Both the position numbers and the translations under genes were made by a program. DNA of 64,000 nucleotides from Kushneria avicenniae (GTDB lineage: Bacteria; Pseudomonadota; Gammaproteobacteria; Pseudomonadales; Halomonadaceae). Of this stretch, positions 9,717 to 23,463 are shown piece by piece (within the stretch, counting starts at the first letter, position 1; the number at the start of each line of letters is the position of its first letter). The stretch spans positions 310,001 to 374,000 of the forward strand of contig NZ_FOLY01000003.1 of the NCBI RefSeq assembly GCF_900112585.1. The letters run 5' to 3'. The notes under the pieces are model-generated. The model had not been told where the DNA came from. It was given only the letters and a program-made list of their open reading frames with translations, and made no database searches.

Positions 9717-11900
9717 ATGGACACGAATCTTGAAGGACTACGTAAGGCTGCGGGAATATCTCAAGCAGAGATGGCCTCTTACCTCGAAATATCACAAAGC
9801 CAAGTTTCACGTTATGAAAAGGATCCTGATGAAGTTCCTTTGAAAATCTTTCGCAAGTGGCAAGCATTCTGTGGGCACATTTCAAGCAACCGCTCCCTCG
9901 ATCTAGGTGAGCATGATCCTATGGCCGAGATCGATAATCGTATCGAACTTATAAACGATTATTTGGATGCACACCCGATTCCGCCTTCTGACTTCTCTAT
10001 GGACCATCTAGAGAGAGACAGTGATGTAGCCTCTATCGACCATTTGCGTGAAACCATTAGTCGCGTTGGACGTAAACCTAGGGTTGGCTTGTTTGGTCGT
10101 TTTGATATGGGGAAATCTCGGCTAGCCAATATGCTGATGGGCGGCGATAGCCTACCAGCTCAGTATCAACCGACGACCAGTATCGCTTGCTTAATTCGCC
10201 ACATGGATGACAAGCCCGAGTGGCAACCAGAAAACGTTTGGATCATGGACTCAGGGTTCGATCTTGACCGGCCGGATGATGAAAAGCATTGCAATGCCCA
10301 CCGTTTAGTTGGTGGCGGTTATGAAGCACTAAGCGATCACGGAACTCACTCCAAGAATGGTGTAAAGCACACACGGAAAGATGCCGCGGCCGCTATTGTT
10401 TATGTTCGCTCAGACTTTTTAAAAGGTTGTGATTTGATAGACCTACCCGGCTATCAGAACCATGAAGACGATGACCAGCGCGCTGAAATGGCTCAGCGTA
10501 TCGCAGATGTCATTATCTATGTTTCTCTCGCAGCAGGATTTATGAATGAGCAGGATCGCGGTTATCTGGCACAGTTGACTCGCCATCTTCCTGCCTTCGA
10601 AACGCCAATGAATGGCCTTCCTCCACTTCGCAATCTGATGGTAGTGGCAACAAGGGCCGACATAGCCGGCAACGAACCCAACAAACTCCTTGAAATGGCC
10701 TGTCGTAACACTTTTGATGGGATTGGGGAGACTTTACAAGATCGTGGAGAGCAACTTGGCGTATCCCTCTCTCGCGACGACTTCTTAAATAGATTTTTCA
10801 CATATTCCGCTGACTCTCCTAGCTTTCGAAAAGACTTTGAGAATGACCTTGTGGAACTATTGGCAGATATTGCCCCACAGAGGATCTTAGAAAATCTTGA
10901 TCGCATAGTCCGTGATGCTAAAGCAAGCAATGCGAGAAGTTGTGACGGGATTATCGAATCGATCACTGGAAGGCTGGATAATCGAGAACGAGCACAACAA
11001 GAAATTAAAAGCGTTTTAGATAACGAAGATGAGCGAATAGAAAGAAAAAACGAACATGAGTCCAAAGTGCTTCGTTTAATCGAATCGCTTAAGCGAGAGT
11101 CATTATTAGAAGCATCGAATATCTATAGGAAACATACAGACGTAGATTACATAGAGAATATAATCAAACATAGATATGAAAATAAAAAGCAAGCAAAAGA
11201 GCTAGCCCCAACATATATAGTTGAACAAATTCAACGCGCCTTGGATAACAACCTGAAAAAAAAAGCTGAGCGCCTCAGAATCGAAGTTGACTCTTTTCTT
11301 GATCAATATCAAACGGCTATAGGAAAAGACTCTAACTTAAATGACAGTTGGAATTTCAATGCTAAGGGCGCTTTCATAGGTGCATTAGCGGGCTTTGGTA
11401 CTTTTGGGGCTCTAGCGACTTGGGCAAGCGTGGTGGCTGCCGGCAGTAATCTTGGCGGCTATATTCTAGCAGCAAAAATAGTTTCCATGCTGTCTTCGAT
11501 CGGAATCAGTTTAGGCGGCACTGGCACTGTCATGTCTTTAATAAGTTTATTGGGTGGCCCAATCACTATCGCCGTTGGTATCGGAATAGCGGTAGGTGCC
11601 GTTATAGCTTTCATAGCCGGCGATTCATGGGAACGCAGCTTAGCCAAGCGAATTGCCAAGGGATTAGATAAAGAAAATGCAATGGGAGTTATTACAAAGC
11701 AGTTAAACGGCTTTTGGGATGACACAAAGAAAGCTTTTGAACATGCTGCAAGTGAAACGGAAAAAGACTTCAAAAAGAAACTTAAAAGCCTGAGTCATAT
11801 TGCCTTTAACACTAATGTTGAAATACTTAAAGAGCATCTAGTTTTCGTAAGAGAGCTACGTGATTTCTTCGCAGGAATTCCTTGGAAATCGATCCAGTAA
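9717..11900 (+). CDS. XRE-type HTH fused to a dynamin-like GTPase with a hydrophobic C-terminal segment
   Basis: The 727-residue protein starts with a helix-turn-helix of the Cro/C1 (XRE) type (residues 4-52, LRKAAGISQAEMASYLEISQ). A GTPase domain follows with G1 GRFDMGKS (about 127-134), G3 DLPG (about 242-245) and G4 TRAD (about 311-314), the arrangement of bacterial dynamin-like proteins. Residues about 410-540 are charged and predicted helical. A glycine-rich hydrophobic stretch (about 551-636) could insert into membrane, and a helical tail ends the protein. Codon use is far more AT-rich than in the neighbours, indicating transfer. Dynamin-like GTPases such as LeoA/Eleos occur in defence loci, so a defence role is plausible but inferred. 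Confidence 0.8.
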   Translation: MDTNLEGLRKAAGISQAEMASYLEISQSQVSRYEKDPDEVPLKIFRKWQAFCGHISSNRSLDLGEHDPMAEIDNRIELINDYLDAHPIPPSDFSMDHLERDSDVASIDHLRETISRVGRKPRVGLFGRFDMGKSRLANMLMGGDSLPAQYQPTTSIACLIRHMDDKPEWQPENVWIMDSGFDLDRPDDEKHCNAHRLVGGGYEALSDHGTHSKNGVKHTRKDAAAAIVYVRSDFLKGCDLIDLPGYQNHEDDDQRAEMAQRIADVIIYVSLAAGFMNEQDRGYLAQLTRHLPAFETPMNGLPPLRNLMVVATRADIAGNEPNKLLEMACRNTFDGIGETLQDRGEQLGVSLSRDDFLNRFFTYSADSPSFRKDFENDLVELLADIAPQRILENLDRIVRDAKASNARSCDGIIESITGRLDNRERAQQEIKSVLDNEDERIERKNEHESKVLRLIESLKRESLLEASNIYRKHTDVDYIENIIKHRYENKKQAKELAPTYIVEQIQRALDNNLKKKAERLRIEVDSFLDQYQTAIGKDSNLNDSWNFNAKGAFIGALAGFGTFGALATWASVVAAGSNLGGYILAAKIVSMLSSIGISLGGTGTVMSLISLLGGPITIAVGIGIAVGAVIAFIAGDSWERSLAKRIAKGLDKENAMGVITKQLNGFWDDTKKAFEHAASETEKDFKKKLKSLSHIAFNTNVEILKEHLVFVRELRDFFAGIPWKSIQ

Positions 11901-12305
11901 AATCATGCTTTGAAAACCGGCTAATGTTTGATCAATTCAAATATTGAAAATAAACCTTTGCCTAAGCCCCCAAGCGCGCTGTCGACTCCCCGCCCCGCCT
12001 GCGCGCTAAATGGGTCGGTTTTATTGCACCCTTGCAAGGGCCGCCGGGCCGCGCCTGTACTGGGCCGCGCGGCGGTTTTATGGCGTCCAGAAACCTTGCG
12101 TTTCCTTGCATTTCACACCGGCCACACCGAGTGGTGTGGGGTCAAAAGCCGGCTCTGTGATACGCATTGTTGCGCTGACCTGAAAACGGGTGTCTCGTGC
12201 GATCCTCGTCAAGCTCTACTGGTCTTTTCAGCACAATATTTGAGTGCGCTGATTAAGTAAAGTTGTGTAACGGTGAAGTGAGACAAAAGCAGCATCTATC
12301 CCGAA
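11901..12305. other. Gap between the GTPase gene and cassette A
   Basis: No gene is supported here. Base composition returns abruptly to GC-rich after about 11,970. A small inverted repeat (CACACC, loop GAGT, GGTGTG) lies at 12123-12138, preceded by another CACACCGG copy at about 12114. I see no terminator with a T run after the GTPase gene. Confidence 0.4.
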
Positions 12306-12421
12306 CCCCTTCGCTCGCCAGAATGAAATGATCACGCCCTGATCCAGCCATTTCTGGCCCATCTTTTGTTGAGACTGATTCTCATTCCCCTGATACGTTT
12401 TCACACCTGTGATTTTTGAGT

Positions 12422-12642
12422 GGGAACACCGGGAACAGTGGGAACAAGGCTCAACCATGCGGGTTCCAGCGTGGGAACATTGTTCCCACTGAAAAATCGA
12501 GTGGGAACAGAAAAGGGCAAAAACACCCCTATACAGGTAGGTGTTCCCGTTTGTTCCCACTCTTTAGTGTTTTACCGGGAACAAGCGAGCCCGCCTGTGG
12601 CGCGGCTTCCGGCGAGGTGTTCCCACTGTTCCCGCTGTTCCC
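12422..12642. repeat. Iteron cassette A (core GGGAACA)
   Basis: Twelve copies of GGGAACA or its complement lie in fixed order. Forward copies start at 12422, 12431, 12440, 12473, 12503 and 12577; inverse copies start at 12481, 12542, 12552, 12618, 12627 and 12636. The first three and last three copies are each 9 bp apart and are mutual inverse repeats of about 25 bp. The pair at 12473/12481 makes a tight palindrome. Flanking invariants shared with the other cassettes are TCACACCTGTGA (12401-12412), CAACCATGCGGGTTCCAG (12452-12469) and TTCAGGTTCCTGT (12650-12662). Homology with cassette C extends outward to about 12306-12780. The likely role is an origin or a structured control element; this is inference. 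Confidence 0.9.
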
Positions 12643-12821
12643 GGTCGTTTTCAGGTTCCTGTGAAAACCTTCCTCACCGTTCCAACGCTCGATGAGAGTT
12701 GTCTGGCCACCATCACCGTCGGTTTTACCGATTCTTTCTCTTGGAGAGCGATGGGTTTGTGATCGTGGCCACCATAGTTGCCAGTGATGTGTATGGGGAG
12801 ACGCTTAACGATCTGACCTCG

Positions 12822-13163
12822 CTAGCGTGAAAATGACTTCTCGAAGGTATCGAGATCGAGTGCGATTCCTTCCTCAACCAAAAAATCGAGAGCTTTTGCA
12901 GATGCCTCAATTCTTTGGTTATCACCAAATCGCTGGGCAATTCGGACATTTTTAAGGAGTTTTTCCGTGACCACATGGCGGGGGAATTTTCGAAGCACGT
13001 CTGAGTGCTGATATATATCACGCTCTATCTGGGCACCTCGCTCTTCGGAAAGGTAGGTGCCGTGCCCCTCACTAGGAGGCTTTCTATTATATTCCACCTC
13101 TTCAATCAGACTGACAATTCTAGTTAATGCCTTACCTGCCTTCAGCTTGCCGAATATCCACAT
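12822..13163 (-). CDS. Orphan small protein between cassettes A and B
   Basis: This 113-residue hypothetical protein starts at the ATG at 13163 with CAGGGAAC upstream. It opens with MWIFGKLKAGKALTR and is mostly helical and charged, with no signal peptide, membrane segment or motif I recognise. It reads away from cassette B and towards cassette A, so cassette B could serve as its upstream region. Its composition is less GC-rich than the primase genes. I cannot assign a function; it may be satellite cargo. Confidence 0.6.
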   Translation of the reverse strand: MWIFGKLKAGKALTRIVSLIEEVEYNRKPPSEGHGTYLSEERGAQIERDIYQHSDVLRKFPRHVVTEKLLKNVRIAQRFGDNQRIEASAKALDFLVEEGIALDLDTFEKSFSR

Positions 13164-13366
13164 GATCGTTCCCTGCCTGTTCTCGACGATGCTCTTACTG
13201 GCGACTATCGAACATCGCACGAACTGTTGTTAATTATGGTGTTGTCTCTACCGCCCCCCTTCATCGATATGGAACCGAATAAGAGCTTTCAGGTTACGGC
13301 ACGAGCTTCAAAATGGAAATCGAGACTGATTCCCCTGATACGTTTTCACACCTGTGATTTTTGGGT

Positions 13367-13586
13367 GGCAACACTGGCAACAGTGGCAACGAGGCTCAAC
13401 CATGCGGGTTCCAGAGCGGCAACACTGTTGCCAGTCAGAAAAGCAGTGGCAACAGAATCAGGGTGAAAAACCCTTATATAGTGTGGTGTTGCCAGTTGTT
13501 GCCACTCTTTAGTGATTGACTGGCACCGCATCAGCCCGCCTGTGGCGCGGCTTTCAGCGACGTGTTGCCTTGTTGCCAGTGTTGCC
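13367..13586. repeat. Iteron cassette B (core GGCAACA)
   Basis: Same layout as cassettes A and C with a different core. Forward GGCAACA starts at 13367, 13376, 13418 and 13448, with near-copies at 13385 (GGCAACG) and 13522 (GGCACCG). Inverse TGTTGCC starts at 13426, 13487, 13497, 13563, 13571 and 13580. Relative to the first iteron the positions equal those of A, apart from one lost base near the right end. The invariant boxes recur: TCACACCTGTGA at 13346-13357, the 18-bp central box at 13397-13414, and TTCAGGTTCCTGT at 13593-13605. Its homology with A and C stops close to these boxes (about 13320-13630), so it is the shortest and most worn cassette. Confidence 0.88.
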
Positions 13587-13630
13587 ACTCGATTCAGGTT
13601 CCTGTGGCAGTCTGTCCTCACTATTCCAGA

Positions 13631-13942
13631 TCAGGGGGATGATTCATAAACGACTTCAAACTCGGGACCAAGCTCCGTTTGAAGTCTGGATCTCATATCA
13701 TGAGCGGCAGTTTCAAAAGCTCGAAACTCTTCCTGGCTCCAGGGGCTGGGGTCAGGTGGATAATCCCAGTTCAATGCCTTGTCATGCCAGGCAGTCAGCG
13801 CATGAAGCTTCTGGAGAGTGGCTTCCGATAGCGGCAGATTCTCTTCAATGGAGCCCACACTAAACCTTTCCCGAGCAGCATCATTTCCGCACCAGATACA
13901 TCCACCACCCCATTCAAACATCAGCCGTACCCTATAGAGCAT
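13631..13942 (-). CDS. Orphan small protein between cassettes B and C
   Basis: This 103-residue hypothetical protein starts at the ATG at 13942. It is rich in Trp and acidic residues (WGGGCIWCGND near the start, then DYPPDPSPWSQEEF), with a CxxC pair at about residues 16-19. I recognise no family. It reads leftward, directly upstream of cassette B, and its own upstream region merges into the left flank of cassette C. The repeated order cassette then small gene suggests modular cargo. The ribosome site is weak, so expression is uncertain. Confidence 0.5.
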   Translation of the reverse strand: MLYRVRLMFEWGGGCIWCGNDAARERFSVGSIEENLPLSEATLQKLHALTAWHDKALNWDYPPDPSPWSQEEFRAFETAAHDMRSRLQTELGPEFEVVYESSP

Positions 13943-14137
13943 TTGCCCGAGTCCCCTTGAACAAAAATGGTGATTCGACCACCCATTGCAGCATGAAGAT
14001 TACCGCGCCGGTCAAAGTCAGTAATCCCGCTCGCCAGAATGAAATGATCACGCTCCGATCCGACCCTTTCTGGCCTCTCTTTTGTTGAGTCTGATTCCCA
14101 TTTCCCTGATGCGTTTTCACACCTGTGATTTTCGACC

Positions 14138-14358
14138 GGGTACACCGGGTACACCGGGTACAAGGCCCAACCATGCGGGTTCCAGCGTGGGTACACTGTA
14201 CCCGGTCAAAAAATGACCGGGTACAGAATGAGGCAGAAATGTACCCATATTGGGAGGTGTACCCGTTTGTACCCACTCATATGTGATCTACCGGGTACAC
14301 GCCAGCCCAGTCATGGCGCGGGCTGGCGAGGTCTGTACCCGTTGTACCCGCTGTACCC
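14138..14358. repeat. Iteron cassette C (core GGGTACA), nearest to the replication genes
   Basis: Forward GGGTACA starts at 14138, 14147, 14156, 14189, 14219 and 14293; inverse TGTACCC starts at 14197, 14240, 14258, 14268, 14334, 14343 and 14352. Twelve of these thirteen sites fall at exactly the same offsets as in cassette A, and the copy at 14240 is extra. Invariant boxes are at 14117-14128, 14168-14185 and 14366-14378. Homology with A continues outward on both sides (about 14025-14490). The cassette lies about 180 bp from the gene cluster encoding the coiled-coil protein, DUF927 ATPase and primase, so it is the best candidate for the origin used by the resident enzymes. Confidence 0.9.
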
Positions 14359-14539
14359 GGTCGTTTTCAGGTTCCTGTAAACATCGTCCTCACCGTTCCG
14401 GCGCTCGATGAGGGTCGTTTGGCCATCATCACTGCATTTTTTACCGATCCTTTCCTCTGGCAAGCGATGGGGTTTGTAGCGGTGGCCACCACGTAAAAAG
14501 GGCCGCCCGAAGGCAGCCCCTGTTGGTATGGTTCGTTTG

Positions 14540-15349
14540 TCAGTGGGTTTTCTGACGCTGTAACTCCTGTGCCTGATTCTGCGCCCGCTGCTGAAGGCTG
14601 TTTTTCGGGCCGCTGTATTGCTGTTCGCAGGCCAGCAGTGACATGGCACGCAGTACGGTCAGGCTTTCCGGTGCCGGCGGTGTCTCCTGTGCCGGGTCGA
14701 TTTGTCGATTCAGCCCCATCAGACGTTTAACCAGCTTCTGCTGGAAGCGTTTGGCCTGTTCCTGCTCGACCCGGGCGCGGTGATCGGCCGGACCATGCTC
14801 CTGATTGTTCGGCTCACTTTTCACATCGTGGTCGGTCTTGCGCTTGACCTCCGGCAGCAGGGACAGCAGGTGGCGACCCTCGGGCAGATCCAGCAGCGCT
14901 GCGGTGGCATTCTCAAAAGCCTGTTCGACTTCCAGCCCCCATGCCTCCTGCCGCGCGACCTCGTATTTACGGCGGGCGTCGATCACGGCGATGTGTTGCT
15001 CGGTTAGTGGCGCCTGCAATTCGCCGGCCATGGACTCAAGTTCTTCGGCGGTCTCTCGGCTTTCACTGACCGAGCGTTTGACCTGCCGAATCTCTTTGGT
15101 CAGGTCGCCGTTGCTCTCGCGCAGCAGGTCGCGCCAGCGGCGGTCGTTGCTCTCGGCTTCTTCCCGGGACGCTGCCGCACCCTTGCTGAAGCGCTCGACG
15201 CGCTGGTGAAGGTCGGTCAGCGTTTCACGCTGGCTCAGGTACTCATTGCGGGCCTGTTCGTGTCGGGTCATGTGGTTGGCCATGGGGGCAGCTCCTGTCT
15301 GTGTATCGGCGGTGGTCGTGGTCTGGGCGTTGGCGTTGGCAGCGGTCAT
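14540..15349 (-). CDS. Coiled-coil protein of the island replication operon
   Basis: The 269-residue protein is rich in Glu, Gln, Arg and Ala, with long predicted helices (residues about 30-175). It has no motif I can name. I place the start at the ATG at 15349 with GGAG upstream; a second ATG at 15283 also has AGGAG and could give a 247-residue form. A GTG at 15454 overlapping the previous stop codon is less likely. It is the last gene of the leftward operon after the primase and DUF927 genes and ends next to cassette C. A replication or packaging accessory role is a guess from position. Confidence 0.6.
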   Translation of the reverse strand: MTAANANAQTTTTADTQTGAAPMANHMTRHEQARNEYLSQRETLTDLHQRVERFSKGAAASREEAESNDRRWRDLLRESNGDLTKEIRQVKRSVSESRETAEELESMAGELQAPLTEQHIAVIDARRKYEVARQEAWGLEVEQAFENATAALLDLPEGRHLLSLLPEVKRKTDHDVKSEPNNQEHGPADHRARVEQEQAKRFQQKLVKRLMGLNRQIDPAQETPPAPESLTVLRAMSLLACEQQYSGPKNSLQQRAQNQAQELQRQKTH

Positions 15350-15450
15350 GGGGTGGCTCCATGCAGTGGATGAGGGGGCGGCCATCAGGCCGCCCCGGAT
15401 TGCGGGGGTAAAGATGAGCGCGGCAAGCGGCGCCATAGCAGCGGTCGTTG

Positions 15451-17226
15451 TCACGACGTCGTGTTCTCCATGTCCAGCCGTTCGGGATCGATCACGAAAA
15501 ACCGCGCCGTACCGCCGCCGGGCAGGCGGTACTTTTTCTGTATCCGGCCCACCTCCACCTTGGCCAGTGCCTGGTGTGTATTGAGCGTTCGAAGGATGCG
15601 ATCCCGGCTGTAGCCTTCGACGGCTTCCAGCAGCGCGGCGCGGTTGAACAGGTACAGTCGGCGGTTGTCGTCCACCTCATAGAAGCCGGCACGGTGTGAG
15701 ACGTGGGCGGCAAGCTGGGCGTTAACGTCGGAGAAACGGCTATCGCCGTGCAGTGCGATGAAGTCGGCCAGCGCGGTGAGGATTTGCCGGTCTTCGGCGT
15801 TGCCGTCGCCGATGGTGGCCAGCCACTCCATGAACAAGAGCCGGCAGGCCTGAATGGCGGTTTCCGGTGGCCACGGCAGGATCTCCCATTCGCTGGCCAG
15901 CTCCCCGGCCAGCGCCATGGCGGCGAAGCGATCCGCCACACGTCCGGCCTGCGAGCTGGTGACGTTGAAGCGCCTTCTGATCTCGCCAAAGCGCCACGGC
16001 AGGCCGTTGGCCACGTCCTCATCGATCAGGTGTTCCACCAGTGCCGGACCGGCGTGGCCGTAGTGCTTTGATACTGCCCCGGTCAGGGTACGGTGGAAGG
16101 TTTCGCCGTCCATGCCGTGAACGTCATCAAAGGCGCGGTATTTGCGGGTGCCGGCGTTGATGTCCACCATGCGCAGTTCGGCCCCGGCATGTGCCGTGCT
16201 GCCGCCCATGGCGGCGTGATCGGAGAGCGAGCGCTCGCCGCTCGAGAGCGCCAGCAGGCGCCAGTAGTTCTTGGGCCGGCCTTCCCGCTCGCGGGTCATG
16301 GTGCCCTTGCCGGTGCCGTTGGCAATCGCGTAGGCGTGGCCCTGTATCTGCTTCGGGCTGGCCCGGCTCATCTCGTCGTTGATCATCACGGTGTCATTGC
16401 GAGACGACGCCTCGATCTCGACCCCGCCGCCGGACATGTCCCACGACACCTTGAAGCGATCCGGTGGCCCCCAGATCGTGGCGGCCACGTCCTGTGCCAG
16501 CGATTTGCCGCTGGAGGAATCCCCCACCAGATGGATGCCGCCGCCGTTGACGCCGACCTTTTTGAGCAGCGGCCCGGCCAGCGCGCAGCACACCGACAGG
16601 ATCAGTACCGGGTTGCCCAGGCATGGGGTGGCCACCTCTTGCTGCCATGCCTCCAGACTGCCCCGGGTGTCGAAGATCTTCGCTTCACGCCCGGAACTCT
16701 GGAACCGTACCCGGGTGCTGCCGATGATCCGCTCGGGCAGCACAAAGGCGCCGCTGCGTTCATGCCAGCCGGGCCTTGTGGTGGTTTCCAGCACCACATC
16801 AGGGGCGTGATGACTGGCCACGAACGCCGGAATGTATTTGCGGTGGTGGTAATCGACGATCAGGCCCTGACGCATCAACGGCTTCAGCACGTCGTCACCC
16901 TTGCCGGCCAGCGCCTCCATGGGAATGACGTATTCCAGCTCCCGGCCCCGGTGATAAAAGCGCACCAGCCGCCCGATGCTGCCGTCGTCGCTGTCGATGG
17001 TCTCGGCCTCGATATACAGCGGCGAGCAGATCCATAGGTCGAACGGCTGGCCGGGTTCATCCGGCGAGGTCTGCTTGATGCCGTGATACCAGGTGCCGGC
17101 CCGGTAGAGCCGCCCGTCGATGTTCACCGGGCCGTCATAGGTGGCAAAGCCGGGCCGGGTGATGCCCTCGCGCTCGGGTACGTTGGGATTGCCCACCAGT
17201 GACAGGTGCGGTTCGTGGTTGCTCAT
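15451..17226 (-). CDS. DUF927 domain ATPase, helicase-like replication protein
   Basis: The 591-residue protein has a DUF927 domain with Walker A GDSSSGKS (residues 235-242) and a Walker B-like MINDE (281-285), followed by a winged-helix-like C-terminal half. DUF927 proteins occur in satellites and integrative elements beside primases and are thought to act as replicative helicases, comparable with the helicase part of P4 alpha. The ATG overlaps the stop of the upstream primase gene (ATGA), so the two are translationally coupled. Together they would unwind and prime the island origin, and cassette C is the likely target. That link is inference. Confidence 0.85.
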   Translation of the reverse strand: MSNHEPHLSLVGNPNVPEREGITRPGFATYDGPVNIDGRLYRAGTWYHGIKQTSPDEPGQPFDLWICSPLYIEAETIDSDDGSIGRLVRFYHRGRELEYVIPMEALAGKGDDVLKPLMRQGLIVDYHHRKYIPAFVASHHAPDVVLETTTRPGWHERSGAFVLPERIIGSTRVRFQSSGREAKIFDTRGSLEAWQQEVATPCLGNPVLILSVCCALAGPLLKKVGVNGGGIHLVGDSSSGKSLAQDVAATIWGPPDRFKVSWDMSGGGVEIEASSRNDTVMINDEMSRASPKQIQGHAYAIANGTGKGTMTREREGRPKNYWRLLALSSGERSLSDHAAMGGSTAHAGAELRMVDINAGTRKYRAFDDVHGMDGETFHRTLTGAVSKHYGHAGPALVEHLIDEDVANGLPWRFGEIRRRFNVTSSQAGRVADRFAAMALAGELASEWEILPWPPETAIQACRLLFMEWLATIGDGNAEDRQILTALADFIALHGDSRFSDVNAQLAAHVSHRAGFYEVDDNRRLYLFNRAALLEAVEGYSRDRILRTLNTHQALAKVEVGRIQKKYRLPGGGTARFFVIDPERLDMENTTS

Positions 17227-18353
17227 TGCGCACCTCCTGTCTGGCCGGTGCCTTTTGACTGGCCGGCGCCTTTCTTCTGGCGAGCGTGGGGGTTGCGGTG
17301 TTCTTCCGGTGACTGACCGGCCTGCTGCCGGTCGCGGCGGCGTTCACCGTCGATGCGCTGCCGGTGCCAGCAATACAGGTCGTTGAAGTCGGTGGCGTCC
17401 TCCGGGGCGCCTTCCGGCCACTTGGGATACAGCACCAGCGCGCCGGCGGCGACCGCGGCGTCATTGGCCATCTTTTTGCCGGGGTTGCCTTCGGTGTGCC
17501 GGTCATCGTCGCCGGCGATCACCAGTTCCAGAGAGCCGTTGAGCGCCCTTTTCATGTAGAGGGCCACGGCTTCCAGATTGCCGGCATTCATGGCGCACGC
17601 CACGGGGTCGCCGGTCAGCCGGTGAAGGGTGGCGCCGGTGGCCCAGCCCTCGCAGACGAACAGACGCCCGCCGGGGATCAGATCCCCGATCAGCGAGTAG
17701 GCGCCGGTCACACGGCCGCCTTTCAGAAAGCGCTTGCGCCCGTTGGGCATGATCCATTGCAGATTGACCAGCTCGCCATCGGCATACAGGGGCACCATCA
17801 GCCAGCCGCGCCCGGACTGGCGCAGGTTATAGACCGGCAGCTTTTTGGCGATCAGGTAGGGGTGATGCTTGTTGGCCGGGCGGGCGCTGTCCCAGTAGCG
17901 CCGGGCGCGTTCGGCGGCGGCCTCGCGGTTGCGGGCCTGCTCCTGTTCCATCGTGCGCCGGCGTTCTTCATGGGCTGCCGTCAGTGCGGGATCAAGCACC
18001 GGCGAGGACTGGACCGGCATACCGCAGCGGGCAGGCCGGAACACACCGAGCCCCAGCCGGGCATCGATCTCCATGGCGGCATCGACCTGCCGGCGATAGC
18101 TGCGCAGGTAGCACAGCAGTGACACCAGATCACTGCCCCGGGCGTCACTGTCGGCAAAGTCGTTCCACTTGCCGCTGGTCAGTGATACCCCAAAGGAGCC
18201 GGCGTGGCGGTCGCCCCGGACGGTATTGCGGGCCTGCCACTCGCTGCCCTGTCGCCTGCCTTCCGGCAGCCACTCGGAGAGCAGCAGTTCGGCGTACTCG
18301 AGCGCCGCAAGACTGACGCGGCGGATTTTGGCGATGGTCTCGTGCTCAGCCAT
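17223..18353 (-). CDS. Toprim-domain primase of the satellite type
   Basis: This 376-residue protein has a Toprim domain in its second half. The glutamate motif is CEGWATGATLH and the acidic cluster is AGDDDRH, the residues that hold the catalytic metal in primases and topoisomerases. The N-terminal part (WLPEGRRQGSEWQARN, then GKWNDFAD) resembles the DNA-binding front of satellite and phage primases. A basic tail rich in Gln and Gly ends the protein. The start is the ATG at 18353, with GGGAGG six bases upstream. It overlaps both neighbours, so it is part of a tightly coupled operon with the DUF927 gene. Confidence 0.85.
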   Translation of the reverse strand: MAEHETIAKIRRVSLAALEYAELLLSEWLPEGRRQGSEWQARNTVRGDRHAGSFGVSLTSGKWNDFADSDARGSDLVSLLCYLRSYRRQVDAAMEIDARLGLGVFRPARCGMPVQSSPVLDPALTAAHEERRRTMEQEQARNREAAAERARRYWDSARPANKHHPYLIAKKLPVYNLRQSGRGWLMVPLYADGELVNLQWIMPNGRKRFLKGGRVTGAYSLIGDLIPGGRLFVCEGWATGATLHRLTGDPVACAMNAGNLEAVALYMKRALNGSLELVIAGDDDRHTEGNPGKKMANDAAVAAGALVLYPKWPEGAPEDATDFNDLYCWHRQRIDGERRRDRQQAGQSPEEHRNPHARQKKGAGQSKGTGQTGGAQ

Positions 18354-18639
18354 GGGCCACCTCCCGGCTGTGCGCCCGACCTGCAATGTTCATCAGATCG
18401 TCGGCATCGTTGAGCAGCAGATAGGCGGCGTGGGCGATGCTGGACAGGTCGCGGCCATCGATGGCGCCGCCCTTGCTCTCACCGCCCAGGGTGGTGACGG
18501 TGAACAGCATGTCGCGGGCCGCCGAGAGTCGCAGGCCGGCGCAGTCGTGCAGCTCGTCAAAGCTGGCATGGCCATCGATCAACAGCGCCGGGCGATTGTT
18601 GGTCGGGTGAGCGGTCAGCGGGACGTATTGATCAGCCAC
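18346..18639 (-). CDS. Small island protein, upstream of the primase
   Basis: This 97-residue protein starts at the GTG at 18639, chosen because a GAGGGGG ribosome site precedes it. It overlaps the upstream gene by eight bases and the primase start by eight bases. The sequence (residues 15-90) contains HASFDELHDCAGLRLSAARDML and a helical end, and resembles small DUF-type proteins of unknown role beside satellite primases. I cannot name a function. Confidence 0.65.
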   Translation of the reverse strand: MADQYVPLTAHPTNNRPALLIDGHASFDELHDCAGLRLSAARDMLFTVTTLGGESKGGAIDGRDLSSIAHAAYLLLNDADDLMNIAGRAHSREVAHG

Positions 18640-19343: not shown

Positions 19344-19598
19344 TCAGCAATCGGTCTCGATGCTGGGGCCCCGGTGCAGATCGGTCAGCAGGTGACGGTT
19401 TGCGGGATGTTCGGCGTGATGGCCGGGTGAGGCGTTCGACTTGTGCTGTGTGACAGACACAAAGCGCTCACTGCCGCCGCGCACAACCTCGCGGCCCGGC
19501 AGGTTGATGGCCCCGGTCAGGGCCGAATCCATCGACTCCATGTCCGCTTCGGTAAAGTCGATGCTCTGATTGCCGATCTTCATGGTGAAGCGTTTCAT
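19344..19598 (-). CDS. Small protein coupled to AlpA
   Basis: An 84-residue protein starting at the ATG at 19598, with GGAGG upstream and an ATGA overlap with the alpA-like gene. The first 25 residues (MKRFTMKIGNQSIDFTEADM) look like a folded beta-strand pair with an acidic helix, while the end is His-rich and irregular. I recognise no family. Coupling with AlpA suggests a role in island regulation or excision, by position only. Confidence 0.6.
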   Translation of the reverse strand: MKRFTMKIGNQSIDFTEADMESMDSALTGAINLPGREVVRGGSERFVSVTQHKSNASPGHHAEHPANRHLLTDLHRGPSIETDC

Positions 19599-19876
19599 GC
19601 GCGGGCCTCCGGTCGGGCTGTGTTTTTCAGGGTGGTGTTGCGCTGGGCGAGGCGTTCGGCGATCCAGCCGTCGATCTCTTCTTCCAGCCAGGCGACGCTG
19701 TTGTCGCCAATCGGGACCGGCGCCGGGAAGGTGCCGTCGCTGACGCCCTTGTAGATCGATGAACGGCTCTTGCCGGTCTTGAGTTCGACGTCACGGCGGC
19801 GCAGCAGGCGGTTGCCCAGCTGGATGCGCTCGACGTGCCGGCAGGCACTGGTTTGGGAGTGTGTTGATGCCGTCAT
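19595..19876 (-). CDS. AlpA family excisionase/regulator
   Basis: This 93-residue protein is a short winged HTH of the AlpA/MerR-like type: LLRRRDVELKTGKSRSSIYKGVSDGTFPAPV, then AWLEEEIDGWIAERL (about residues 24-78). In P4-like prophages AlpA proteins activate integrase expression and aid excision. It lies between the integrase-cargo block and the replication block, and it opens a leftward operon with the 84-residue gene. Confidence 0.88.
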   Translation of the reverse strand: MTASTHSQTSACRHVERIQLGNRLLRRRDVELKTGKSRSSIYKGVSDGTFPAPVPIGDNSVAWLEEEIDGWIAERLAQRNTTLKNTARPEARA

Positions 19877-20128: not shown

Positions 20129-22018
20129 TCAAACATAAGAAAGCAATAGCTGATCCTTACTCCTAAACCCTCTTCTGTTTAAAGTCTGAGCCAGCATTTC
20201 CATTTGATCATTTTTTAGGAAATTCCTATACATATATCTCATTCTTTCCTGATCCAACTTGTGCAAACTCGTATTTTCAGTGTAAACATATCTAGCAAAC
20301 TTTCTTAACCATATCTTTTCTGAGCGCGGTATTTTAGATGCACTCCTATGTCGAACACTAATATTGATCATTAGACTTAGTTGAACGCTAGCATGTAATC
20401 TCAAAAAATCTTTATAAAATTGATAGGCATTTAAATATTCAAAAAAGGAAGTATCAGCGAACCCTCCATCGTGTCTATCAAGTTTAGAAAGCTTTTCAAA
20501 GAAGCTTTGCGGATTTTCCGTCCACCTTTTATAAGCTATCAGAACATCTTTTCGGATATTACCCTTTAACTTGCAATTGACTTTTTGCACCAAATATCTA
20601 GTTATTTCGGCAAACTCGCTACTATCTGATTCAAAATAACCTAGATTTTCGTAAGATGTAGCTAAGAACCCATTTTCAACACTCAAGCTTTCATACGGAA
20701 ACTCTGCAGAAAATTGGTCGTGACTATATATATTATCTATATAAACCTTACTTTCGCGCACCGATTCTTCTACACTCATATTTATAACGCCGATTCTAGC
20801 AAGCCAAATTTTTATCCCGGCGGCATGCATTATATCCCCAAATTCTATAAAGTTTTGCTTAGTCCAGTCAGATTCAAATCTAGCAATATCCACCTCAACT
20901 TCTTCTGCATTTTTTTGTGACCAGCGCCATACAGAACGCCAAGATTTTTCAAACTTTATTTGGTTATAATAAGGACTTAACTCTAATTGATCCAATACAT
21001 CCTGATCACTTAAAGAAGCTTTCGAAACAAGCTCTAGCATAAATTTAGCTGGAAGAACTTCTTTACTAAAATTAAAGTTTTTGTATTTCTCATTGATAAG
21101 AGCAGCTAACTTCTTATCTTCTTCTCCTAACCCGCCAAACCAATATTCCCCGAGCTTATCCACATCTATATTTTTTATATCCCCTCCATGGTATTCAAGA
21201 TAAAAGGCCGTATAAGCATAAGCTAGCGCTTCATTGCCTGCCTGATTCAGCTTGGCTCCTTGAGTCAACTTGAAAATATGCTCTAATTCTAACAAAGCTC
21301 TTTTTAGCAAGCGCAAGTTATTTAAGGATGATTCTTCGTAGGCTCTAAATATCGAATCCTGAGCACTCCCTAAAATTTCCTTGCACAAGACTTCATTTTT
21401 TCTAGAACATTTTGACTTATCTAAAAAGTCATTTAGCACAATCTCGGGAGAAGGGTTAACTTTTACTGTTTTTCCGATCACTTTTTCCCGAATTTTTTTA
21501 AACTCGGGCATTTTAACCAACAACTCTTCTTGATGAGCTATTAGAACCACTTTTGAGCCAAACGTGCTGATCAATTTATCAGCCAACCCCAGCAACTCGT
21601 AATCTTTTAAACCACAGCGCTCGATATCATCAAAAATATATATTTTTGGCTTTTCGAAAACGTTTAGAACAGCTTCAGAAAAAACTGAAGAATCTATTCT
21701 AAACCTTTTAAACGTAGCTCTTGCGAAACCGTTTGTGAGCTTTTTCCATTTACTGCGCATTCTTTTTTTATAGAAATTATCAAAAACCAATTCTTCGTAT
21801 AAAAAATTGATGTCGCTTATTCCATGCAAACTGACCTTTACGCACTTACCCTTTATTTCAGGTGGCAAACTTTCAAGGACATTTTCCACAAAAAAAGTTT
21901 TTCCTGCCCCCCATGCTCCATCTATTAAAAAAGCGTAATCCGTTTTATCTTCACTTACTATGTATTTTCTTAGCAAACGTTCGCTATTTAAGTTCAATGA
22001 ATTATTTGTACTCCCCAT
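20129..22018 (-). CDS. KAP-type P-loop NTPase, probable defence cargo
   Basis: The 629-residue protein has Walker A GAWGAGKT (residues 34-41) and Walker B IYIFDDIERC (about 126-135), with LIAHQEELL as a sensor-like strand, as in KAP/STAND-related ATPases. The remaining 400 residues are helical and AT-rich in coding, with no clear effector domain or membrane segment. The ATG is five bases after the integrase stop region and on the same strand, so the two are probably co-transcribed. Cargo beside the integrase of P4-like satellites is often anti-phage. A role in defence fits but is inferred, and the effector, if any, is not visible. Confidence 0.75.
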   Translation of the reverse strand: MGSTNNSLNLNSERLLRKYIVSEDKTDYAFLIDGAWGAGKTFFVENVLESLPPEIKGKCVKVSLHGISDINFLYEELVFDNFYKKRMRSKWKKLTNGFARATFKRFRIDSSVFSEAVLNVFEKPKIYIFDDIERCGLKDYELLGLADKLISTFGSKVVLIAHQEELLVKMPEFKKIREKVIGKTVKVNPSPEIVLNDFLDKSKCSRKNEVLCKEILGSAQDSIFRAYEESSLNNLRLLKRALLELEHIFKLTQGAKLNQAGNEALAYAYTAFYLEYHGGDIKNIDVDKLGEYWFGGLGEEDKKLAALINEKYKNFNFSKEVLPAKFMLELVSKASLSDQDVLDQLELSPYYNQIKFEKSWRSVWRWSQKNAEEVEVDIARFESDWTKQNFIEFGDIMHAAGIKIWLARIGVINMSVEESVRESKVYIDNIYSHDQFSAEFPYESLSVENGFLATSYENLGYFESDSSEFAEITRYLVQKVNCKLKGNIRKDVLIAYKRWTENPQSFFEKLSKLDRHDGGFADTSFFEYLNAYQFYKDFLRLHASVQLSLMINISVRHRSASKIPRSEKIWLRKFARYVYTENTSLHKLDQERMRYMYRNFLKNDQMEMLAQTLNRRGFRSKDQLLLSYV

Positions 22019-22022
22019 TACA

Positions 22023-23219
22023 CTATCCTTTTGCGCTTGGAAATATATAGCTTGCCCATGCCTGCATCATTGCCGGTCTCTGCTCCGGCGCCATATGCTC
22101 TGCATGGGTATAGATCCCTTGAATACCCGGCAGCTTATGCGAGAGCTGCATCTCTATCCATTCGCCCGGGTAGCCCATCTCCTTGAGCGCTGTGGCGATG
22201 GTATGGCGTGTGCCGTGAGGCACATGCCGGCCATCAAAGCCCATGCGCTTGAGCGCCATGCTCCACGTCATATCGGACATGGGCCGAGTGCTGTCATTAC
22301 GACCGGGGAATAGCAGGTTGTAGTGGCCAGTGATGCGGTGCAGATCCCTGAGCACGTCCAGTGCCTGGGTAGGCAGTGGCACCTTATGCTCCTTGCCCAT
22401 CTTCATCCGCTCGGCGGGAATGCGCCATAGGGCCTTGTCGAAGTCGAACTCTTTCCACTCGGCCTTTCTCAACTCTCCCGGCCTGACAGCGGTCAGCAGC
22501 AGGAGCTTGAGGCCGTACTTCACCAGTACGTTGCCCCTGTAGTTCTCGATGGCCTGCACCAGCTCCGGCAGTTCTTCGGGGCCAATGTGGCTCATGCTGC
22601 CTTTCTTGAACCGCTGGAGCGCGACGCCCAGATCGGCCAGTGGGTTACTGTCTACCCGGCCCGTTACCACAGCCAGCCGGTAAATATCCCGGCAGAAGAA
22701 ATGCACGCGGCGCTTTTGCTCATGCTTGCCCTGCTGTTCCAGCCGGCGAAGAATCCCCAACCAGTCCATGGGGGTAATGCTCTGGATCGGGCGATCCCCG
22801 ACATAGGGGAATACGTGATTTTCCAGCACTGACCAGCTCAGCTTTGCCCGGTTGGAGGTGGCCTTCCATTGCTGCGCCTTGCCGCTGTGCCATTCATTGG
22901 CCAGCGTGCGGAAATGGTCAGCGTCGAGGTTCTCCAGCGCTTCCTGTTCGGTTCGGCGATGTTCGGCCGGGTCGATGCCCTGAGAGACCAGCCGGCGGGC
23001 CTCACTGGCCTTCTCACGGGCCTCTGCCAGCGTCACCGTGGGGTAACTGCCAAAGCTCATCATGTTGCGCTTCTTGGAGCCGTCCGGGCGGGTATAGCGA
23101 AAGCGCCAGCCCTTGCGACCATTGGGCGCCACGATGAGCTGCAAACCGTCGCCGTCACTGAGCGTGATGGTCTTGTCAGATGGTTTGGCGGTTTGGATCT
23201 TCTTGATGGTCAACGGCAT
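22023..23219 (-). CDS. Tyrosine integrase of the P4/CP4-57 type
   Basis: The 398-residue protein has the N-terminal arm-binding domain (DUF4102-like, ITLSDGDGLQLIV), a core-binding domain and the catalytic domain. The catalytic residues are seen as Arg in LTAVRPGELR, HxxR in HGTRHT, the second His in SHKLPG and the nucleophile Tyr in GIYTH. It would insert island 1 at the 3' end of the tRNA-Arg gene about 165 bases upstream and excise it again with AlpA. The gene is close to the tRNA and points away from it, the usual layout. Confidence 0.93.
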   Translation of the reverse strand: MPLTIKKIQTAKPSDKTITLSDGDGLQLIVAPNGRKGWRFRYTRPDGSKKRNMMSFGSYPTVTLAEAREKASEARRLVSQGIDPAEHRRTEQEALENLDADHFRTLANEWHSGKAQQWKATSNRAKLSWSVLENHVFPYVGDRPIQSITPMDWLGILRRLEQQGKHEQKRRVHFFCRDIYRLAVVTGRVDSNPLADLGVALQRFKKGSMSHIGPEELPELVQAIENYRGNVLVKYGLKLLLLTAVRPGELRKAEWKEFDFDKALWRIPAERMKMGKEHKVPLPTQALDVLRDLHRITGHYNLLFPGRNDSTRPMSDMTWSMALKRMGFDGRHVPHGTRHTIATALKEMGYPGEWIEMQLSHKLPGIQGIYTHAEHMAPEQRPAMMQAWASYIFPSAKG

Positions 23220-23387
23220 GGTGGTATAGAAACAAAAATCTAACAGGGGTATATACCACTTACTATACCTTTCGGGTGCTGGATTGGGTAGGAACAGGCA
23301 GGAACGGGAAAGACGCTAAAACGGTATTTTTGCAGCAATTTCAGGGATTTAAAGGAATGGAGAGGACTTGCTGGGAAGGGGTAGTGG

Positions 23388-23463
23388 CGCGCTTGTTGGG
23401 ATTCGAACCCAAGACCCCCGCCTTCGGAGGGCGGTACTCTATCCAGCTGAGCTACAAGCGCGC
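23388..23463 (-). tRNA. tRNA-Arg (anticodon CCG)
   Basis: On the minus strand the full cloverleaf is visible: acceptor GCGCGCT pairing at the end, D arm with AGCTCAGCTGGATAGAG, anticodon stem CCGCC/GGCGG around the loop CTCCGAA (anticodon CCG), and T arm with GGTTCGAATCC. The CCA end is encoded at 23385-23387. The gene is intact. Its 3' end faces the integrase, so it is the likely attachment site of island 1. Confidence 0.95.

Follow-up and report, generated by a model that had tools for sequence, protein, structure and literature searches.

Wing residue 565 of a DUF927 helicase tracks the iteron core of the nearest array in P4-like satellites, suggesting an origin-recognition code

How can a dozen binding sites change together while the scaffold that holds them stays the same? 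The question is raised by a 64,000-nucleotide stretch of Kushneria avicenniae DNA (contig NZ_FOLY01000003.1, positions 310,001 to 374,000; hereafter the window), which carries three arrays, A, B and C, built on one scaffold from three different 7-bp iteron cores. Judged by its gene content, the island around them is a P4-like phage satellite, and its genes include one for a DUF927 helicase. The arrays are very probably iteron origins of this satellite, with the DUF927 protein as an initiator that would read the nearest array through the wing of its C-terminal domain. The features on which this proposal draws are listed with their window positions and strand.

12422..12642, plus strand: array A, 12 iterons GGGAACA; an extra origin-like cassette that differs from the C core at base 4
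13367..13586, plus strand: array B, 10 exact GGCAACA iterons and two near-copies; an extra cassette
14138..14358, plus strand: array C, 13 iterons GGGTACA; the array nearest to the psu and DUF927 genes, proposed as the island's own origin
15451..17226, minus strand: DUF927 helicase, the proposed origin-binding initiator (Pfam PF06048, E 1.9e-61)
15490..15567, minus strand: wing (residues 554-579) of the C-terminal winged helix, taken from structure models
15532..15534, minus strand: codon of K565, the residue tracking core base 3, read from the sequence

Three arrays on one scaffold

A preliminary description of the window had reported identical site geometry in the three arrays, with twelve uniform sites in A, the same twelve plus one extra in C, and ten exact sites with two near-copies in B. 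All 12 sites of A read GGGAACA, at offsets 0, 9, 18, 51, 59-, 81, 120-, 130-, 155, 196-, 205- and 214- (a minus sign marks the complement). Array C has GGGTACA at the same 12 offsets and a 13th copy at 102-, and alignment identifies the near-copies in B as GGCAACG at offset 18 and GGCACCG at offset 155. The reported site counts are thus correct throughout, and the geometry is identical in A and C; in B the last two sites lie 1 bp earlier (204- and 213-), which shortens one end of the array by 1 bp. The non-iteron boxes described as unchanged are also real, and the homology among the arrays reaches beyond the iteron sites.

In 20 dinucleotide shuffles of the whole window, the best 7-mer in 221 bp reached 3 or 4 copies, which excludes a chance origin of the arrays. 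When the window was scanned for 7-mers present at least 6 times within 280 bp, A, B and C alone came up. The cores of A and B both occur as the own cores of other elements. That of B belongs to the own array of a second such island in the same genome (contig C6), which carries one GGGAACA and one GGCAACA array.

A wing residue that tracks the iteron core

Relatives were collected by DUF927 searches, which matched 52 of 201 family genomes at E <=0.001 and 29 of 275 at 1e-120. At the level of the order, 3 of 293 genomes matched at 1e-150, and in the Pseudomonas group 44 of 398 did so at 1e-120. The contig scan of genomes took in the best 80 of 105 confirmed loci, and IMG/VR added one. Following the suggestion that genomes be searched for more members, we obtained 105 unique elements after removing 35 duplicate pairs and 16 loci with <50% DUF927 identity (L062-L075, L189 and L190). 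Of these elements 101 have a full-length gene; four short or broken DUF927 genes (L054, L059, L188 and L136) were excluded.

Arrays were located with a k-mer scan blind to the core sequence, which places them downstream of DUF927, or of a psu-like gene where one is present. Where such a gene follows DUF927 the array usually lies behind it, with one array between the two in L047, and elements with no psu match (L045, L048 and L049) keep their array. Within about 2.5 kb downstream of DUF927, 93 of the 101 full-length elements have a scorable GG[GC][AT]AC array. Five of the eight without one (L046, L096, L097, L104, L148, L155, L182 and L183) have R or S at the position of K565, and some loci dropped before the 93 bear arrays with other cores. 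As separate observations, the DUF927 element of Kushneria sinocarnis (L046/L100), with the wing NRLQKN, showed no iteron array in its 20-kb locus, and its origin may have been deleted; an 11-kb circular P. aeruginosa plasmid record that belongs to the family (pHS87b, L193, at 7517) has S at 565 and a sparse GGGAAC array.

For each element we scored the nearest downstream array against the residue aligned to window K565. This residue agrees with core base 3 in 92 of 93 elements: K occurs with GGG in 54 and N with GGC in 38, and L044 alone combines K with GGC. Tabulating the core against the linked DUF927 sequence, as the preliminary description had advised, picks out a single position, and column 565 ranks first among all DUF927 columns (mutual information 0.904 of 0.981 bits; next column, 0.611). 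Because 565 outranks the other C-terminal columns that travel with it, a contact between this residue and the base is favored. The column ranking covered DUF927; the Toprim and Psu-like proteins are further possible binders.

The association recurs across the DUF927 phylogeny. A quick tree of residues 1-490 gave 15 residue changes and 14 core changes, and of 8 supported independent pairs 7 agree, none opposes and 1 shows no difference (p 0.0156). The rule was fixed before 34 new loci were fetched, and all 15 scorable ones fit it; the others were 14 duplicates of known loci, 2 with R, 1 with a broken gene and 2 with <50% identity. The satellite phiAH14b also fits, having K at 565 and a GGGGAAC array behind a DUF927-type helicase. 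A second correspondence involves the base before the core (base -1), which is G in all 31 elements with a DSR or ESR wing loop; the other 61 of 92 elements have T (26), A (2), C (1) or no clear base (32).

Structure models place the residue where such a contact could occur. Both the whole-protein model (mean pLDDT 75.2) and a model of the C-terminal 137 residues (84.0) contain a C-terminal winged helix with K565 in a wing strand. The best credible Foldseek matches were TcpK-oriT (top), SaPIbov1 Rep and SCCmec Cch. A PDB profile search with the C-terminal domain found nothing credible. In TcpK the beta-wing sits in the major groove and binds tandem 9-nt repeats (PMC6137059), and 9-bp-spaced iterons read by a wing residue would suit this binding mode. 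By sequence, the window's DUF927 protein matches SaPIbov1 Rep (8tch) at E 3.4e-14 and, less strongly, SCCmec Cch (5dgk) at E 1.3e-6. Against the profile NF047345 it scores 38.5 bits, far below the cut-off of 700, and so it is not an SCCmec Cch1.

In the mechanism we propose, the DUF927 helicase would be a self-loading initiator whose C-terminal winged helix binds the GG[G/C][A/T]ACA iterons of C via its beta-wing. Helicase rings would assemble on array C, melt the DNA and begin replication with the Toprim primase. Wing residue 565 would read core base 3, K pairing with G and N with C, and the wing loop preceding 565 would track the base before the core. The analysis shows the arrays, the association of residue with base, the C-terminal block of divergence (taken to be a swap), the foreign source of one extra array in Pseudomonas and the conserved sites of A; that the wing binds iterons, that the arrays work as origins, that the helicase loads there and that A or B has a role are inferred.

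Several observations weigh against this reading. The best tree of the C-terminal domain with the wing left out gave 8 changes, with only 3 supported independent pairs (p 0.25), so that the association is due in part to cotransfer of domain and array. The 15 test loci include many that closely resemble training sequences, and 8 of the 101 elements could not be scored. L044 violates the rule, since its K565 stands before a recombinant-like array of mainly GGCAAC with three GGGTACA. The link to base 4 (T) rests on the window and the L044 remnant. The Foldseek matches are weak (best E 0.017, none at <=0.001). K565 fits base 3 of GGGAACA as well, so the window's own initiator might also bind A. Finally, some Halomonas-group arrays mix GGCTACA or GGTAACA among GGCAACA, and homogeneity of the sites is thus not universal.

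To examine base 4 further, GGGTACA was sought in more genomes. Triplet matches turned up in 4 of 275 family genomes, in 25 of 396 from the Pseudomonas group, where most were not arrays, and in 52 viral stretches. Four IMG/VR contigs (L258, L285, L289 and L292) have GGGTAC-type arrays behind distant DUF927-like genes whose wing could not be aligned. By this comparison, the replicon type is wider than P4-like islands.

Concerted change of the iteron sites

If the initiator reads its array through the wing, then a wing altered by a point change or by a swap of the C-terminal domain would require every cognate site to follow, which is how we propose that the core changes in concert on a fixed scaffold. 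An apparent case of this kind is provided by L037. Its DUF927 gene shares 92% nucleotide identity with that of the window over codons 1-500, 78% over codons 501-550 and 64% over codons 551-591, whereas L036, whose protein as a whole is 85% identical to that of the window, shares 92% identity with L037 in codons 501-591. With the divergence confined to the C-terminal codons, a block exchange of the DNA-binding domain seems to have taken place. The proximal cores differ accordingly, GGGTACA in the window and GGCAACA in L037, and in a 6-kb alignment the GGCAACA array of L037 takes the place of C. Two Pseudomonas elements, L153 with K and L177 with N, share all 12 offsets but have GGG and GGC cores, respectively.

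These comparisons suggest that the concerted core change is best explained by coevolution of initiator and iterons. The earlier proposal that a coevolving initiator forces the change stands for C, given the residue 565 association and the position of the array just downstream of DUF927 or psu; A and B carry cores that other elements use as their own. Homologs whose sites vary independently had been named as evidence to the contrary. Such variation is not the rule, as the L153 and L177 pair shows, although some Halomonas-group arrays are mixed and the nearest array of L044 is a chimera.

Two apparent exchanges of other kinds were also seen. The L044 array nearest to DUF927 (about 11520-11860) is a chimeric origin, with a GGCAAC body and three GGGTACA at one end, and is apparently a recombinant of B-type and C-type arrays. 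The Psu-like gene of L036 (7910-8995) is about 26% identical to that of the window (14540-15454), though the DUF927 proteins are 85% identical, and it seems to have been exchanged on its own.

The finding shows how a dozen binding sites change together. A residue-to-base rule for the origins of a large satellite family would make compatibility groups predictable from sequence. Natural K565, N565 and I562/K565 variants make the spread of a specificity switch over many sites, a long-standing question, open to experiment.

Extra arrays and their possible roles

In this proposal A and B would be additional origin-like arrays, written in another code, that the island has either retained or acquired. 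In a scan of up to 9 kb on either side of the gene (shorter at contig ends), 8 clear extra arrays were found in 6 of 101 elements: two each in the window and L044, and one each in L036, L037, L047 and L147. All 8 differ in code from the own array or from the expected own code, which for L044 was inferred from K565 and its GGGTACA remnant. The difference lies at base 3 in L036, L037 and L047. A short second array in L153, with six GGGGAACC-like copies, was left out of the 8 as doubtful, and clusters of 6 and 7 copies of mixed 7-mers (L107, L110 and others) were taken as chance.

The role that we tentatively place first is satellite competition, in which extra arrays would be hitchhiking origins fired by the initiator of a co-resident satellite or decoys that titrate it. 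The consistent difference in code fits this role, as does the presence in the same cell of the C6 island, whose initiator type (N565, GGCAACA) matches B. The extra array of L147, a Pseudomonas element, lies directly behind its own origin and matches the origin of L143, from another satellite lineage, with 95% identity across 260 bp; this alignment shows that it is of foreign source. Precedents are staphylococcal plasmids that mimic the oriT subtypes of conjugative plasmids (PMC8136818), which are transfer origins, and the iteron-dependent trans-replication of a betasatellite among plant satellites (PMC10745424). However, none of the 8 DUF927 matches in 10 Kushneria genomes is of GGGAACA type, leaving A without a known partner there, and the L147 genome has no second DUF927 match at 1e-120. 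In addition, two of the differences in code involve a single base, which is base 4 between window A and C and base -1 between the extra and own arrays of L147.

Nearly as plausible, though likewise short of an even chance, is that A and B are passive relics, either former own origins left behind by a domain swap with a new cognate origin or recombination debris. Within the array, B most resembles the proximal GGCAACA arrays of L036-L038, from which it differs at 15 to 18 of 136 spacer positions; it has lost one site, and its place fits an insertion of C and the neighboring 103-amino-acid (aa) open reading frame (ORF) between psu and B. L044 has a similar order, with its chimeric proximal array. 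Window A and the A array of C6 are almost identical internally, with 2 differences in 221 positions, but have 12 in the 115 positions of the flanks, a pattern that looks like recent exchange and does not reflect selection. Passive decay is at odds with the conservation of A sites across genomes: between the window and L044, 1 of 84 iteron positions is changed, compared with 27 of 137 in the spacers (Fisher 1.4e-5), and between the window and L037, 0 of 84 compared with 8 of 137 (p 0.025). Moreover, the own initiators of L036 and L037 have N565, which does not match GGG.

A fuller version of the competition proposal is slightly less probable than either of these, in part because A differs from C at one base: satellites would stockpile working origins of rival code, which a rival initiator replicates (hitchhiking) or is soaked up by (decoy), while the wing rule permits a change of group by one substitution or swap. 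Should the extra arrays prove functional, satellites would be using or obstructing the initiators of their rivals, a layer of conflict that we did not find in the open-access literature searched.

An unlikely reading makes A a counterpart of P4 crr or a site tied to cos, to be recognized by the island's own initiator or by a protein of a helper or of another island. Array A lies 310 bp from cos in the window, the distance in L036, L037 and L044 being about 310 to 400 bp, and window K565 fits its base 3. Yet in five Salinicola elements a GGGAACA array is proximal, with a K565 initiator. Moreover, of 20 Kushneria cos copies 15 lack an iteron array within about 1.5 kb, and the other 5 are islands already in the set; on this count we rejected A as a feature of helper cos sites.

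Very improbable is the alternative, raised in the preliminary description, of a DNA or RNA structure whose self-complementary arms force the sites to agree: the single strands of A, B and C do fold much more strongly than shuffled sequences (z -8.6 to -8.9), a point against the initiator reading, but this folding follows from the inverted iterons, pairing requires agreement between partners and not among all 12 sites, the cores track a protein residue, and positions 11900-14540 gave no Rfam match at the gathering score, for which reasons an RNA element was rejected.

Comparison with known systems

In phage P4, iterons of the alpha system occur at more than one place, and ori and crr share one iteron type. 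The window differs from P4 in that alpha is split into Toprim and DUF927 genes and in that the cores of A, B and C are not of one type. With the described P4-like satellites (PMC8628076) it shares the integrase, AlpA, the Psu-like protein and a P2-type cos. One member of the window's satellite family, phiAH14b of Pseudomonas sp. ANT_H14, is reported to be induced and packaged in the capsid of its helper (PMC4936722); the word "iteron" does not occur in the main text of that paper, and the 400 bp scanned behind its helicase gene hold one array.

In replication there is a close likeness to the self-loading helicases of SaPI Rep-ori and SCCmec (Cch and Cch2), through the DUF927-related SaPIbov1 Rep and Cch. 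DUF927 Cch is related to SaPIbov1 Rep, and the C-terminal domain of SaPI Rep acts on iterons directly downstream of rep (PMC7581432); an array just downstream of the initiator gene is likewise the arrangement in the 93 scorable elements here. What differs is the setting in Gram-negative P4-like islands, the association of one residue with one base, and the presence of several codes per island. TcpK-oriT (PMC6137059; PDB 5vfx) resembles the proposed reading in its winged helix, whose beta-wing reads 9-nt tandem repeats, and differs as an accessory protein of conjugation; the structural match is weak (E 0.017).

The preliminary description knew of no element that behaves in this way, which was too strong a claim. 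In the PLE satellites of Vibrio the DNA-binding domain of the initiator covaries with the origin and is swapped, and in the pWBG749-family oriT/SmpO system one residue (F7K) switches specificity and hitchhiking plasmids mimic origins. Both differ from the window: the PLE initiator is RepA_N and not DUF927, and the parts of that paper available to us gave no single-residue rule or stacked origins (PMC8263062), while the pWBG749 sites are transfer and not replication origins, bound by ribbon-helix-helix proteins (PMC8136818). In the open-access literature searched, parts of which were available to us, we found neither a residue-base rule for DUF927 initiators nor stacked replication origins of different code.

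Features of the host island

The island runs in the order tRNA-Arg, integrase, KAP NTPase, AlpA, Toprim, DUF927, Psu-like gene, C, 103-aa ORF, B, 132-aa ORF, A and cos. Its remaining features are as follows.

11966..12112, plus strand: P2-type cos block, GC-rich; aligns with the annotated cos/cosR of Burkholderia phages Mana and AP3
12822..13220, minus strand: 132-aa ORF between B and A, without a family match
13631..13942, minus strand: 103-aa ORF between C and B, 94% identical in L044
14540..15454, minus strand: Psu-like protein gene (phrog_6165, E 2.4e-11 over 128 residues)
17223..18386, minus strand: Toprim primase-like protein (PF13362, phrog_2249)
19595..19876, minus strand: AlpA-type regulator (PF05930)
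22023..23219, minus strand: tyrosine integrase, P4-type (PF00589 and arm-binding domain)
23385..23461, minus strand: tRNA-Arg adjoining the integrase, the probable integration site

The P4-type integrase, AlpA, Psu and helper-type cos all point to a P4-like satellite. Alpha as a single primase-helicase is lacking, its place being taken by the separate Toprim and DUF927 genes, and the ten window proteins scanned gave no match to delta, sid or epsilon. The Psu-like gene is absent or strongly diverged in several relatives. A search for att sites found no exact repeat of the tRNA region of at least 14 bp elsewhere in the window.

Between the integrase and AlpA, at 20129-22018, lies a KAP-type P-loop NTPase gene that strongly matches the candidate defense family PDC-S49 (E 1.4e-101). 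Since none of the 40 loci L036-L075 yielded a KAP relative, the position looks like a cargo slot. A second cargo slot is possible beyond cos (9717-11900), where a helix-turn-helix gene and a dynamin-like GTPase gene have LeoBC/LeoA matches (E 2.7e-14 and 1.3e-10). The cos block itself occurs in 20 copies across 8 of 10 Kushneria genomes; a third copy in the same genome as the window (G000:C15:3933-4070, L209) lies in surroundings that are possibly a helper prophage.
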